Translations under genes and position numbers: made by a program
Assembly (NCBI RefSeq): GCF_019039035.1
Contig: NZ_JAHNZT010000006.1
Coordinates: 62,001-126,000 of the forward strand
DNA length: 64,000 nucleotides
Direction: 5' to 3'
Source of the DNA: Citreicoccus inhibens
Lineage (GTDB): Bacteria; Myxococcota; Myxococcia; Myxococcales; Myxococcaceae
The notes under the pieces: generated by a model
Told to the model about the DNA's origin: nothing
Database searches by the model: none
Seen by the model: the letters and a program-made list of their open reading frames with translations, nothing else
Shown: positions 21,304-52,628 of the stretch, one piece after another
How positions within the stretch are numbered: position 1 is the first letter of the stretch
Layout: each line of letters opens with the position of its first letter

Positions 21304-22332
21304 TCACGGCCAGAGCCCCGCGCGAACGGCCTGGAACAGCAGGTCCGCGAACACTTCCTGGCCTTGGTCCTCGTCCACGAAGGGCAGCGTCAGGCGAGGC
21401 ATGCGCAGCAGCCGGTCATCGACCACGGCATGTGGAGCGCGCCACCGGAGGGCCTCCATCAACGCCTGGAGGCCCGCGACGTGCGTCGGCGCGCGGCGCG
21501 CAGCGCCCATCCCCCCCAGCTCGGTGCCCTCATCGAAGGACGCGCGGAAGCCCTCGCCGAAGACCCACAGGAAGTGCTCGGTGGACGCGTGCTTCGCGGC
21601 GGCCGGTGCCGTCCTCCAGCGAGGGGACTGCGGGAAGATGGGAATCAGCTCGGGCGCGGGCGCCACGCGGGCTCGCTGGCCCCGCACCAGCAATCGGACA
21701 TCCGCGAGGGAGACCTCCAATGGCACGGCCATCTCGGTCGTGAGGTGCAGCCGCTCGACATCGAGCGCGAACGTGCGAACCCGAGGCAGGTGGAGCGTGG
21801 AGCGAGACGCCAACTCGCACACCACCGGGGTGAAGCTCGCCGCGCGCAGCGCCTCGACCAGCGTGGCAGCGGCCTCTTCATTCACCCTCGCCAGCAGGAC
21901 CGGTGGCGGTTGGGAGAGTCGCAATCGGATGTCCACCGCGGACAGCTTCAGCACCTCCGACAGCGCTCGCACCACCTCCTCCGTCACGCCAGGAGGACGC
22001 GGCAACGCGACGAGCGTGTTCGCCGGGCGAAGGGGTCGCTCGGGCTCGTGCGAGGGGACGTGCATCCCCTGCTCACGAGACCGGGACGCGGTGGCTTCGC
22101 GCGACCGCCGCAGCTCGGCCTCGCGGGCTTCCGCCTGCTCCGCGCGCGCACGCTGGAGGCGTCCCTCGCGCCGCGCCTCCTCCAGCGCGTCTTGAAGGGC
22201 GTCACGCTCCCTGGCGTGATGTGCCCTCAGCTTGTCCAGGTGCTCGCGCGTGCGACGCAGCTCCGCCTGAGCCACCTCCAGGGCGTCGCGCAGCTCGCGA
22301 GCGTCCTCCGAGGCATCGCCCGGTCGCTTCAC
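21304..22332 (-). CDS. Coiled-coil protein of unknown function
   Basis: 342 residues from a GTG that overlaps the upstream HAMP-protein stop (GTGA). Residues about 5-95 form a long Arg/Glu/Ala-rich coiled coil ('LRDALEVAQAELRRTREHLD'). A linker leads to a compact segment at about 110-180, 'ALSEVLKLSAVDIRLRLSQP' then 'VLLARVNEEAAATLVEALRA', an alternating helix/strand pattern that vaguely recalls the ribosomal L7/L12 C-terminal fold. The remaining 160 residues are beta-rich and unrecognised. Last gene of the HEAT-HAMP-coiled-coil operon; the coil may contact the HAMP protein (inference). Confidence 0.75.
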   Translation of the reverse strand: MKRPGDASEDARELRDALEVAQAELRRTREHLDKLRAHHARERDALQDALEEARREGRLQRARAEQAEAREAELRRSREATASRSREQGMHVPSHEPERPLRPANTLVALPRPPGVTEEVVRALSEVLKLSAVDIRLRLSQPPPVLLARVNEEAAATLVEALRAASFTPVVCELASRSTLHLPRVRTFALDVERLHLTTEMAVPLEVSLADVRLLVRGQRARVAPAPELIPIFPQSPRWRTAPAAAKHASTEHFLWVFGEGFRASFDEGTELGGMGAARRAPTHVAGLQALMEALRWRAPHAVVDDRLLRMPRLTLPFVDEDQGQEVFADLLFQAVRAGLWP

Positions 22333-40616: not shown

Positions 40617-40732
40617 GGCGGCCAGTCTGCGCCGGAATCCCGCCGGGCGGGCAGACTCTTGTGGGGTGGCGCGTTCGCCGCCGGACGCGCGGCTTGCCTC
40701 CCCTCGCCCTTTGCTGCACTGTGCCCCGCATC

Positions 40733-40954
40733 ATGCTGGGCCTCGGCGAGCTCATCGTTCTCGGATTCATCCTGCTGGTCGTCTTCTCGGCGTCGAGGAT
40801 GGGGCAGCTCGGCAACGCGGTGGGCAAGTTCGTCTACTCGTTCCGCAAGGCCTCGCGCGGGCAGGACCTGGTGGACGCCAAGCAGCTGCCCACCAGCCGC
40901 CGCGGCTCCAGCGACGCCGAGTTCACCGAGGGCCCGAAGGACCGCCGTCCGTAG
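40733..40954 (+). CDS. tatA: TatA/E-like twin-arginine translocase subunit
   Basis: 73 residues. Short N-terminus 'MLGLGELIVLGFILLVVF' gives one membrane helix with the conserved early Glu (E6), followed by the hinge 'SASRMGQLGNAVGKFVYSFR', an amphipathic helix and a charged, disordered tail. This is the TatA layout, but the usual F-G after the helix is replaced by F-S. TatA forms the pore that moves folded RR-signal proteins with TatC. No tatB or tatC is adjacent. A GTG at 40721 would add four residues. Convergent with the repeat-protein gene, 3 bp from its end. Confidence 0.85.
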   Translation: MLGLGELIVLGFILLVVFSASRMGQLGNAVGKFVYSFRKASRGQDLVDAKQLPTSRRGSSDAEFTEGPKDRRP

Positions 40955-50346: not shown

Positions 50347-50877
50347 TCACGCCGACGACGGCGTGGCGTCCCCCCGCAACTGCTCCACCGCCACCAACGC
50401 GATGGCCTTCACCAGCGCCCTCGCGCGACGCCCCGCCGCCGTCTCTCCGTGAGGATCCACCTCGACCGCATTGGCGAGGTCCGTGAAGCCCTGACGCTCC
50501 CCCTTGCGCAGGTACAGCTCGCCTCGGTTGGCCAGGGCCACCGGGTTCGCCGAGTCCCGCGCCAGCGCGGCGCTGTACTCCGCCACGGCCTCATCGAGGC
50601 GTCCGAGCTTCTGGTACACCGTGCCCAGCGCGGCCCGCGCCGCCGAGTCCCGCGGGTTCCCCTCCACGAGGCCCTCGAACAGGATGCGCGCCTCGTCCAG
50701 GCGCCCCGCCGCGGCCAGCTCACACCCCACCTGCGCGATGGCCTTCGCCTCCTCGAACGTCATCCCCTCCACCTCGGCCCAGGTCGACTCGCCTCGCGCG
50801 AACGCCTTGAGCTTGCGCGCTGTGCCCACGTCCATCCGCGGCTCCATGCCCTCTGCGTGCTTGATGATTCGATTCAT
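50347..50877 (-). CDS. TPR protein resembling type III secretion LcrH/SycD chaperones
   Basis: 176 residues. Three TPR units are visible ('EEAKAIAQVGCELAAAGRLD', 'DSAARAALGTVYQKLGRLDE', 'NPVALANRGELYLRKGERQG'), flanked by an N-terminal helical part and a C-terminal tail, close in size and layout to LcrH/SycD/CesD class II translocator chaperones. In the family these bind translocator proteins before secretion. The gene follows a candidate translocator gene by 8 bp on the same strand, which is the classic arrangement. Family-level match only; no other secretion gene is in the window. Confidence 0.75.
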   Translation of the reverse strand: MNRIIKHAEGMEPRMDVGTARKLKAFARGESTWAEVEGMTFEEAKAIAQVGCELAAAGRLDEARILFEGLVEGNPRDSAARAALGTVYQKLGRLDEAVAEYSAALARDSANPVALANRGELYLRKGERQGFTDLANAVEVDPHGETAAGRRARALVKAIALVAVEQLRGDATPSSA

Positions 50878-50885
50878 GGCGGACC

Positions 50886-52415
50886 TCAGGCGCTGCGCAG
50901 GTTGGAGATCGCCGTCTTCGCCATCTCGTTGAACTTGGACGACATGTTGCTCATCAGGTCGAACATCGCCTTGCGCTTCTCCATCAGCTTCTGCAGGCGC
51001 AGCTCCAACTCCTGCATGCTGGTGTCGAGCTTCGCGGCGCGCTCCTTGTCCTTCTGACCCGTGCCGAGCTTCGCGCGCTCATCCCGCGCGCTCGCCATGT
51101 CGTTCATCACCGACAGCAGCTCGTCGTCCGTGTCCTCGGTGATGACCATGAGGATGGCTTGGATCTTCTCCTCGATGCTCATGTTCGGGTTGTCGAGGAT
51201 GTCCCGCACCTTCGAGCTGCTCCCGCCCGAGGCCTTGCTGCCACTGCCCGATGATGAAGACGATGAAGTGGAGGACTCGGGCTCCGGCACCGCCGCGACG
51301 GACTGGAGCGCCGCCGTCAGGTCCTTTCGGCTCGCCGTTCCATCCGGCCCGCCGATGCCGGCCGCCATCTCCAGCCGGTTGAAGTACGCCGAGTGGTCCA
51401 CGAAGAACTGCGCGCAGCGCTTGAGCGTGGGGGAGGCGGCCTTGTCCGCCAGGATGGCGTGGAAGTTGGCCATCGTGAGCTTGTCGTCCTTGCGCCCCAC
51501 CGCCGTGTCGAAGGTGTCCCAGTTCCCCGACAGCACCTTCAACGCGTCGCGATACCCCTCGAAGTCGGGGTCCAGGGCGCCGTCCTTCGACGCGCCCGTA
51601 CCGCCCGACGTACCGCCCGACGTACCGCCCGACGACGACGTGCCTCCCGACGAGGGCGCCCCTCCGCCGGGCCTGGGCGAACACCCCGTGCCCGAAGTGC
51701 CGCCCGGCGTGGACGGCGCCCCGTCGACACCCTTCGGCGGAGGCTCGGACGGCGGGCACGGGCGCGAAGCCTCTGGCTTCTCCGGGCGACCGTACTTCGC
51801 GAAGTCGGCGGAGAGTCCCGCGAGCGCGCCCTTCACATTGAGCAGCGTGATGCGGTCATCGTCGCGCATCGAGGCGATCACCGCGAACGGATTCCCGGTC
51901 AGTCCCGGCGTGGTCTCCCATTGCTCGAAGCGGGCCGAGTCCGACACCAACACGCGCGCGGCATCTCGCAGCGAGGGGGACACGTCGCGGTCCGCGGCGA
52001 CGCGCTGGAGGTCCGCCTTGGACAGCGAGCCGTCCTTCTTTCCATCCAACATGTCCAGGTAGCTGAAGTTCGCTTCGACCGTCTTGAGCGCGACCTCGTG
52101 GTCCAGCAGCTTCGGATCGAGCGGACTGCCCGGACTGGACGGGGGCGCGGACCGGCGGGCATAGCCATCACACGCGCGGGATGCGTCCTGCTGCGCGCGG
52201 TACTCCGTCTTCGCGGGGGGATGCTTGGACAGCTCCTCGGCCACCCCGATGGCGCCGCTGGCCGCCATCATCACGTTGCCCGTCATCACGCCCCCCACCG
52301 TCTTCACGGCGTTCGTGACAACGGGTGGCAGGCCCAGGGCGTTGCCGGCGAGGTCCACCACGCTGCTCATGGGACCGCCCAGCAGGTTCGCCACACCTTT
52401 CAAAACTTCGAGCAT
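50886..52415 (-). CDS. Candidate type III translocator/filament-like protein with duplicated EF-hand-like modules
   Basis: 509 residues from an ATG preceded by GGAG at five bases. Residues 1-65 contain an amphipathic hydrophobic helix region ('VTNAVKTVGGVMTGNVMMAA'). Two similar modules lie at about 100-195 and 280-370. Each carries 'D(G/T)x(x)KKDGxLS/T' type loops (module 1 'DGKKDGSLSKADL', module 2 'VGRKDDKLTMANF'), like NolX/HrpF translocators and EF-hand calcium loops. Between them is a Gly/Ser/Thr-rich low-complexity linker. A C-terminal coiled coil ('LELRLQKLMEKRKAMFDLMS', ending 'AKTAISNLRSA') recalls T3SS translocators or filament subunits. Candidate only. Confidence 0.7.
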   Translation of the reverse strand: MLEVLKGVANLLGGPMSSVVDLAGNALGLPPVVTNAVKTVGGVMTGNVMMAASGAIGVAEELSKHPPAKTEYRAQQDASRACDGYARRSAPPSSPGSPLDPKLLDHEVALKTVEANFSYLDMLDGKKDGSLSKADLQRVAADRDVSPSLRDAARVLVSDSARFEQWETTPGLTGNPFAVIASMRDDDRITLLNVKGALAGLSADFAKYGRPEKPEASRPCPPSEPPPKGVDGAPSTPGGTSGTGCSPRPGGGAPSSGGTSSSGGTSGGTSGGTGASKDGALDPDFEGYRDALKVLSGNWDTFDTAVGRKDDKLTMANFHAILADKAASPTLKRCAQFFVDHSAYFNRLEMAAGIGGPDGTASRKDLTAALQSVAAVPEPESSTSSSSSSGSGSKASGGSSSKVRDILDNPNMSIEEKIQAILMVITEDTDDELLSVMNDMASARDERAKLGTGQKDKERAAKLDTSMQELELRLQKLMEKRKAMFDLMSNMSSKFNEMAKTAISNLRSA

Positions 52416-52628
52416 GGAAACTCCCGCGCGGCGGGTTCGAGTGGTTGCCGCTGGACGCCGCGCTCCGTCTGTCGGACGGGCCGTGAGGGTTGCAGCACGG
52501 GTGCCGACGGCCGCGGCGGGGACCCCTCCAGCGAAATCCGCCAGTTAGGTCGGCGACCAACCAGGACACGTCCCCGACCGCGGACGGAGCGGTCCGCTGA
52601 GGGAGATTGCGGTTAGAGTCCCGCGCCC
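52416..52628. other. Divergent intergenic region of the translocator-like unit and ruvX
   Basis: 213 bp containing the promoter regions of both transcription units. I found no clear -10/-35 pair and no sigma-54-type element. Confidence 0.35.

Follow-up and report, generated by a model that had tools for sequence, protein, structure and literature searches.

A syntenic operon of Myxococcaceae encodes a candidate outer component of T3SS* and a SycD-like chaperone

Introduction

From the sequence alone, two adjacent genes of Citreicoccus inhibens had been proposed to encode a translocator of a type III secretion system (T3SS) and its chaperone, detached from other secretion genes. Which system could such an orphan pair serve? 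Predatory myxobacteria depend on a T3SS* for the lysis of their prey, and a T3SS* mutant kills prey without lysing it (PMC12075869). Recent papers describe the T3SS* as a system that has neither a needle nor a translocon and no identified effectors (PMC12075869, PMC10433427). A loss of SctF in the myxobacterial T3SS* lineage has been argued on evolutionary grounds (PMC3459982), and a model of the evolution from flagella to injectisomes rests on this needleless, translocon-less T3SS*. We asked whether the pair could contribute an outer component to T3SS*, i.e. a translocator or a tip.

Results

Gene layout and conservation of the pair

The window, i.e. the whole stretch of 64 kb that was analysed, represents C90:62001-126000 of the 9.05-Mb genome of C. 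inhibens (123 contigs). The two open reading frames were found as originally described, both on the minus strand. P0001 (509 aa, 50886..52415) is followed after a gap of 8 bp by P0002 (176 aa, 50347..50877). Searches of the contigs of relatives yielded 23 related loci, and the closest named relatives belong to Corallococcus, Myxococcus, and Pyxidicoccus. On contigs that span the locus, the gene order is constant across the Myxococcaceae, and the pair is flanked by the genes W40 and W43, which encode an M48-like peptidase and a RuvX-like protein, respectively (both judged by eye). The pair also occurs in other, more distant families of the order, and P0002 immediately follows P0001 in every such locus that is not truncated by a contig end. 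The side-by-side conservation in the same neighbourhood indicates that P0001 and P0002 are real genes, and the operon that they form is ancient and syntenic in the Myxococcaceae and their relatives. A Myxococcus-type locus with full synteny was also found on a contig titled Comamonas sp. (BNCN01000001.1), the public label of which looks wrong.

The mean pairwise identity of P0002 is 84%. The values for P0001 are uneven, i.e. 74% for the N-terminus, 64-66% for the repeats, 33-55% for the linkers, and 92% for the last 37 residues. BLAST detected no paralog of P0001 in the same genome, and no RNA families were found around the operon. A blastp search with the T3SS proteins of the same genome revealed no further T3SS gene in the 64-kb window. 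The claim that the window contains no other secretion gene is thus valid for T3SS genes, but the window is probably not wholly devoid of secretion genes, because a small TatA-like protein (recognized by eye) is encoded at 40661-40954.

A sigma-54-like promoter element (GGCACCCGTGCTGCA, GG-N10-GC; 52491..52505, minus strand) is located about 91 bp upstream of P0001 and is conserved in orthologs. Of 19 other orthologs that were inspected, 18 have the pattern GGCAY-N5-CTGCA 59-92 bp upstream of the gene, and the element 5′ of P0001 is the sole match of the pattern in the whole window. Co-regulation of the operon with the T3SS* cluster by sigma-54 was considered and rejected, because the strict pattern has no match in the cluster of the same genome and relaxed scores are at the background level. 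The absence of the element from the T3SS* genes counts against an outer component of T3SS*.

P0001 contains HrpF/NolX-type repeats

The N-terminus of P0001 (residues 1-66; 52218..52415, minus strand) is conserved, helical, and mildly hydrophobic; its model has low confidence. The best 19-residue Kyte-Doolittle mean of P0001 is 1.34, below the usual threshold of 1.6 for transmembrane (TM) segments, so that P0001 was not assigned to the YopB/YopD-type class of hydrophobic translocators. The hydrophobic N-terminal region of the original prediction is therefore present in a mild form, but its hydrophobicity had been overstated. The lack of a TM-grade segment in P0001 counts against the outer-component reading.

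The presence of NolX/HrpF-like sequences was corroborated. Two EF-hand-like repeats of the HrpF/NolX type were identified, i.e. residues 99-210 (51786..52121, minus strand), which include a Pfam NolX match at 123-163, and residues 281-376 (51288..51575, minus strand), which align with the first repeat and are modelled with a pLDDT of about 90 over residues 285-350. A repeat profile detected one to three such modules across the orthologs. The match of P0001 itself to Pfam NolX (E 0.0011) is under the cut-off, which is a further point against an outer component. The NolX profile matches 12 of 13 relatives, with 3.2e-7 as the lowest E value, the HrpK1/HrpF profile matches six of the 13, and one ortholog in the same neighbourhood (genome G081, L097) is over the Pfam NolX cut-off, with an E value of 1.8e-12 and three matching stretches. 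A search for NolX relatives on plasmids gave no match. Calcium-binding EF-hands were rejected, because the loops are degenerate (repeat 1, DGKKDGSLSKAD) and a canonical loop (DTNGDGKITSGE) is present in a single distant ortholog only. A protein that is otherwise unrelated to P0001 and seems to be anchored in the membrane also contains an EF-hand/NolX-type module in its central part (L103:8827-10560, contig C9 of genome G043). The module thus seems to be mobile, and the repeat alone is no proof of the function of P0001, which again counts against the outer-component reading.

The proposed C-terminal coiled coil was modelled as a helical hairpin (residues 403-509; 50889..51209, minus strand) with helices at 414-449 and 454-508. 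The model of P0001 consists of two compact modules and this hairpin, and its mean pLDDT of 63.6 represents a low overall confidence. Foldseek retrieved no PDB match for the model at E ≤0.001, VIA-align covered the coiled-coil hairpin only, which is generic, and searches of PDB and Pfam with P0001 or with its tail alone returned nothing useful. No catalytic or toxin domain was found in P0001, and the searches likewise revealed no unrelated family with which P0001 is clearly homologous.

P0002 resembles SycD-type chaperones

The designation of P0002 as an LcrH/SycD-like TPR chaperone was supported by the family search. LcrH_SycD (TIGR02552) is the best NCBIfam family for P0002 (E 4.8e-13) and for all 13 members of the P0002 family. 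The score of P0002 is 49 bits, compared to a cut-off of 104.8, and P0002 is therefore called SycD-like and not filed as SycD. For comparison, the true SycD of the long T3SS cluster reaches 115 bits. The top four structural matches of the P0002 model are PcrH, PcrH-PopD, PcrH-PopB, and SycD, with Z values of 16.6-15.9 over 128-129 residues and 2.4-2.8 Å. The family score below the cut-off and the generic TPR structures, which are only about 1 Z away from PcrH, both weigh against the outer-component reading.

A paralog of P0002 (57% identical) is encoded at C35:274424-274873, just downstream of a gene for a 189-aa Gly-rich, mildly hydrophobic protein, and the two represent a second orphan pair in the genome (L104:9925-10973). 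Homology of that 189-aa partner with the N-terminus of P0001 was rejected as not significant (E 8.7).

In the T3SS* clusters of several relatives, a protein of 370-400 aa is encoded directly 5′ of a P0002-like chaperone (L129:862-2073, L137:6077-7267, L140:7978-9096, and L141:11731-12831). Two of these proteins were tested (L129 and L137), and both are over the Pfam cut-off for DUF1521, which in secreted NopE proteins is an autocleavage domain (PMC6506597). The DUF1521 protein is a candidate T3SS* substrate.

This pairing of a DUF1521 protein with a P0002-like chaperone within T3SS* clusters speaks for the alternative that P0001 is an effector delivered by T3SS*, the repeats of which act in prey, while the tail is only a chaperone-binding or export signal. 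SycD-type chaperones may also serve effectors, and the fast-evolving linkers and variable repeat number of P0001 are compatible with such a role. However, the lack of a catalytic or toxin domain, the vertical inheritance at a single locus, where neither polymorphism nor immunity genes were evident, and a needle-like tail (see below), which is unexpected in an effector, make this alternative unlikely.

The tail of P0001 is similar to needle-like proteins

As the original prediction had suggested, the genome was checked for T3SS clusters elsewhere, and two were found outside of the window, C57 (long) and C45 (short). The best link of P0001 to T3SS* itself is its 92% conserved tail (residues 473-509; 50889..50999, minus strand), which the original prediction had missed. 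With hhalign, the tail aligned to the family of needle-like proteins of about 73 aa from T3SS* clusters with a probability of 93.6% and a score of 36.6, over 37 ungapped columns that extend to both C-termini. None of 650 shuffles, including phase-preserving ones, reached this score, and the shuffle maximum was 24.4.

A six-frame search of the same genome with the needle profile retrieved the needle genes of both T3SS first and the P0001 tail in sixth place (E 0.08). The profile also recovered the P0001-type tail in five other genomes; the tails are nearly identical, and these recoveries are thus not independent evidence. In the reciprocal search, the best non-self matches of the tail profile were needle-like proteins, in which the searched set was enriched. 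Two intermediates corroborate the link. One is a protein of genome G097 with T3SS*-type genes as neighbours, which is recognized by the profiles of the needle and of the P0001 tail and also matches the Pfam needle family. The other is a protein of genome G049 at the position of P0001, which is matched by the needle profile and by the repeat module. The tail had no direct hit to PF09392, the canonical needle family, which also counts against an outer component.

Needle-like genes are present inside the T3SS clusters

In cluster C57, a needle-like gene of 73 aa, the product of which ends in ...MKKMDEMAKAAIGNLK, is present three times in tandem. Needle-like (SctF-like) genes of C. inhibens are located at C57:149896-151043 (L027:2897-4044), C57:167323-167898 (L043:624-1199), and C45:65410-66120, and those of both T3SS loci of M. 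xanthus AM003 at L129:2-124, L129:2293-2517, and L130:17483-17941. Relatives have up to nine matches, several of them as tandem arrays between a SycD-like gene and sctV. A further needle-like protein, which is longer and Gly-rich at its N-terminus, is encoded in each of C57 and C45. Eleven of 19 members of the needle-like family match Pfam T3SS_needle_F (best E 4.9e-5), the family matches a solved needle peptide with an E value of 0.0011, and two longer needle-tailed proteins of T3SS-type loci are above the Pfam needle cut-off. Among the papers searched, none was found on NolX, or on SctF together with needle and T3SS, in myxobacteria. Judged by their sequences, the needle-like genes in T3SS* clusters call the needleless premise into question.

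Large “needle-tailed” open frames were rejected as a group, because most of them turned out to be short or to be needle genes of T3SS clusters within longer open frames. In Myxococcus-like genomes, the T3SS* cluster includes two identical needle-like genes of 74 aa (L126:19252-19476 and 21667-21891, genome G062; the same genes are present in L129). They have the reverse orientation relative to the other T3SS genes and flank a substrate-chaperone-like pair, as if this stretch had been duplicated or inserted. A free-standing C-terminal domain of SctU/FlhB (93 aa; C57:152851-153132, L027:5852-6133) adjoins the full-length sctU in long T3SS clusters.

The results for the tail raise the possibility that P0001 acts as a subunit of the needle or filament type (SctF- or EspA-like), or as a needle regulator of the periplasm, without ever reaching the prey. 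The needle-like tail and the helical hairpin are in accord with this view, needle-like proteins with long N-terminal extensions adjoin TPR chaperones in T3SS clusters, and no outer-membrane secretin has been reported for T3SS* (PMC10433427). In contrast, P0001 has large translocon-type repeat modules and is encoded by a single-copy gene outside of the cluster, while the small needle-like genes are multicopy. We thus regard such a role as quite improbable.

Co-occurrence of P0002 with SctV

The distribution of P0002 was assessed by a hand count in 79 genomes of the order. P0002 was called at E <1e-30, and SctV was counted as long-type at an identity of 63% or more. P0002 and long-type SctV were both present in 27 genomes, long SctV alone in four, P0002 alone in two, and neither in 46. 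P0002 was found in 29 of the 55 genomes with some SctV homolog; the other 24 genomes had no SctV homolog and no P0002 either. The weaker SctV hits may include the flagellar FlhA. Due to these possible FlhA hits and the clade structure, the co-occurrence is consistent with a dependence on a T3SS, but is no proof of it. The fact that it tracks clades, with four genomes that have a long T3SS without P0002 and two with the reverse, counts against the outer-component reading. Genome G001 contains P0002 together with short-type SctV only, and, as judged from the co-occurrence, either the long or the short T3SS may be the exporter.

The distribution is also relevant for the view that the pair is a coincidence, i.e. 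that P0001 is merely EF-hand-like with a coiled coil, P0002 is a generic TPR protein, and both belong to a non-T3SS pathway. TPR and coiled coils are common, P0001 has weak Pfam hits to unrelated coiled-coil families, and the matches of P0001 and P0002 themselves are each below the curated cut-offs. However, three different T3SS signals coincide on two adjacent genes, orthologs and relatives in T3SS clusters do reach Pfam cut-offs, no shuffle attains the tail score, and the pair is absent from all 24 genomes that lack a SctV hit. A coincidence is, therefore, very unlikely.

Discussion

The predicted detached translocator-chaperone pair is supported by the repeats of the HrpF/NolX type and the needle-like tail of P0001, by the PcrH/SycD-like fold of P0002, and by the restriction to genomes with an SctV homolog. 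Together with the needle identity of the cluster family and the strict pairing and synteny, they make it fairly probable that P0001 is an exported outer component of T3SS*, either a translocator or a tip, with its own class II-type chaperone and a tail that docks on the needle. We infer from these features that P0001 is exported, that it binds P0002 and docks on the needle, and that it contributes to the lysis of prey. P0002 would bind P0001 in the cytoplasm and keep it unpolymerised and export-competent, and the export gate of the T3SS would pass it outward. The needle-like C-terminal helix may then dock on, or continue, a filament of the ~73-aa needle-like proteins of the cluster, and the repeats and the amphipathic N-terminus would face the envelope or the prey.

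A more daring variant is that P0001 unites a needle subunit and a translocator in one protein, the C-terminal helix of which polymerises as the last turn of an overlooked T3SS* needle. The translocator would thus be built into the filament of a T3SS that targets bacteria and not eukaryotes. This variant is possible, but we consider it doubtful.

As an outer component, P0001 is a candidate for the missing translocon of T3SS*. The operon and the needle-like genes in the clusters are specific genes that can be deleted or tagged, and secretion by T3SS* thus becomes directly testable.

Comparison with known systems

The putative translocon proteins of T3SS in Xanthomonas, rhizobia, and Ralstonia include HrpF, NolX, and PopF (PF05819, PF16937). 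HrpF/NolX proteins contain one to three imperfect repeats of about 110 aa and no predicted TM segment (PMC5483457). The P0001 family shares the number of repeats, P0001 itself shares the lack of a TM segment and the occurrence in a genome with a non-flagellar T3SS, and, like popF, the P0001 gene is located away from the main T3SS cluster. In contrast to these proteins, P0001 has a needle-like tail, its N-terminus is conserved and amphipathic, and its gene is adjoined by that of a SycD-like chaperone. The likeness is confined to the level of the repeats, and the bearer is a bacterial predator.

P0002 resembles the class II chaperones SycD, LcrH, PcrH, and IpgC in its size, its three TPRs with terminal helices, and the position of its gene beside that of the presumed substrate. 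It differs from them in its low family score and in forming a separate, very conserved myxobacterial branch. With regard to SctF needle subunits (PF09392), the resemblance lies in the tail of P0001, the ~37 residues of which match the C-terminal helix of the needle-like proteins of myxobacterial T3SS, but P0001, with 509 aa and extra domains, has no PF09392 hit.

The gene set of C57 matches that of the T3SS* of M. xanthus (MXAN_2434-2464), i.e. SctI, J, L, N, Q, R, S, T, U, and V, and several LcrH homologues. The SctV of C57 is 90-91% identical in Myxococcus-like genomes, and, based on gene content and this identity, C57 is presumably the orthologue of MXAN_2434-2464. M. xanthus AM003 has orthologs of both the C57 cluster and the orphan pair. 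The T3SS* has been described as devoid of a needle and a translocon (PMC12075869, PMC10433427, PMC3459982), whereas here needle-like genes are found inside the cluster and a translocon candidate outside of it.
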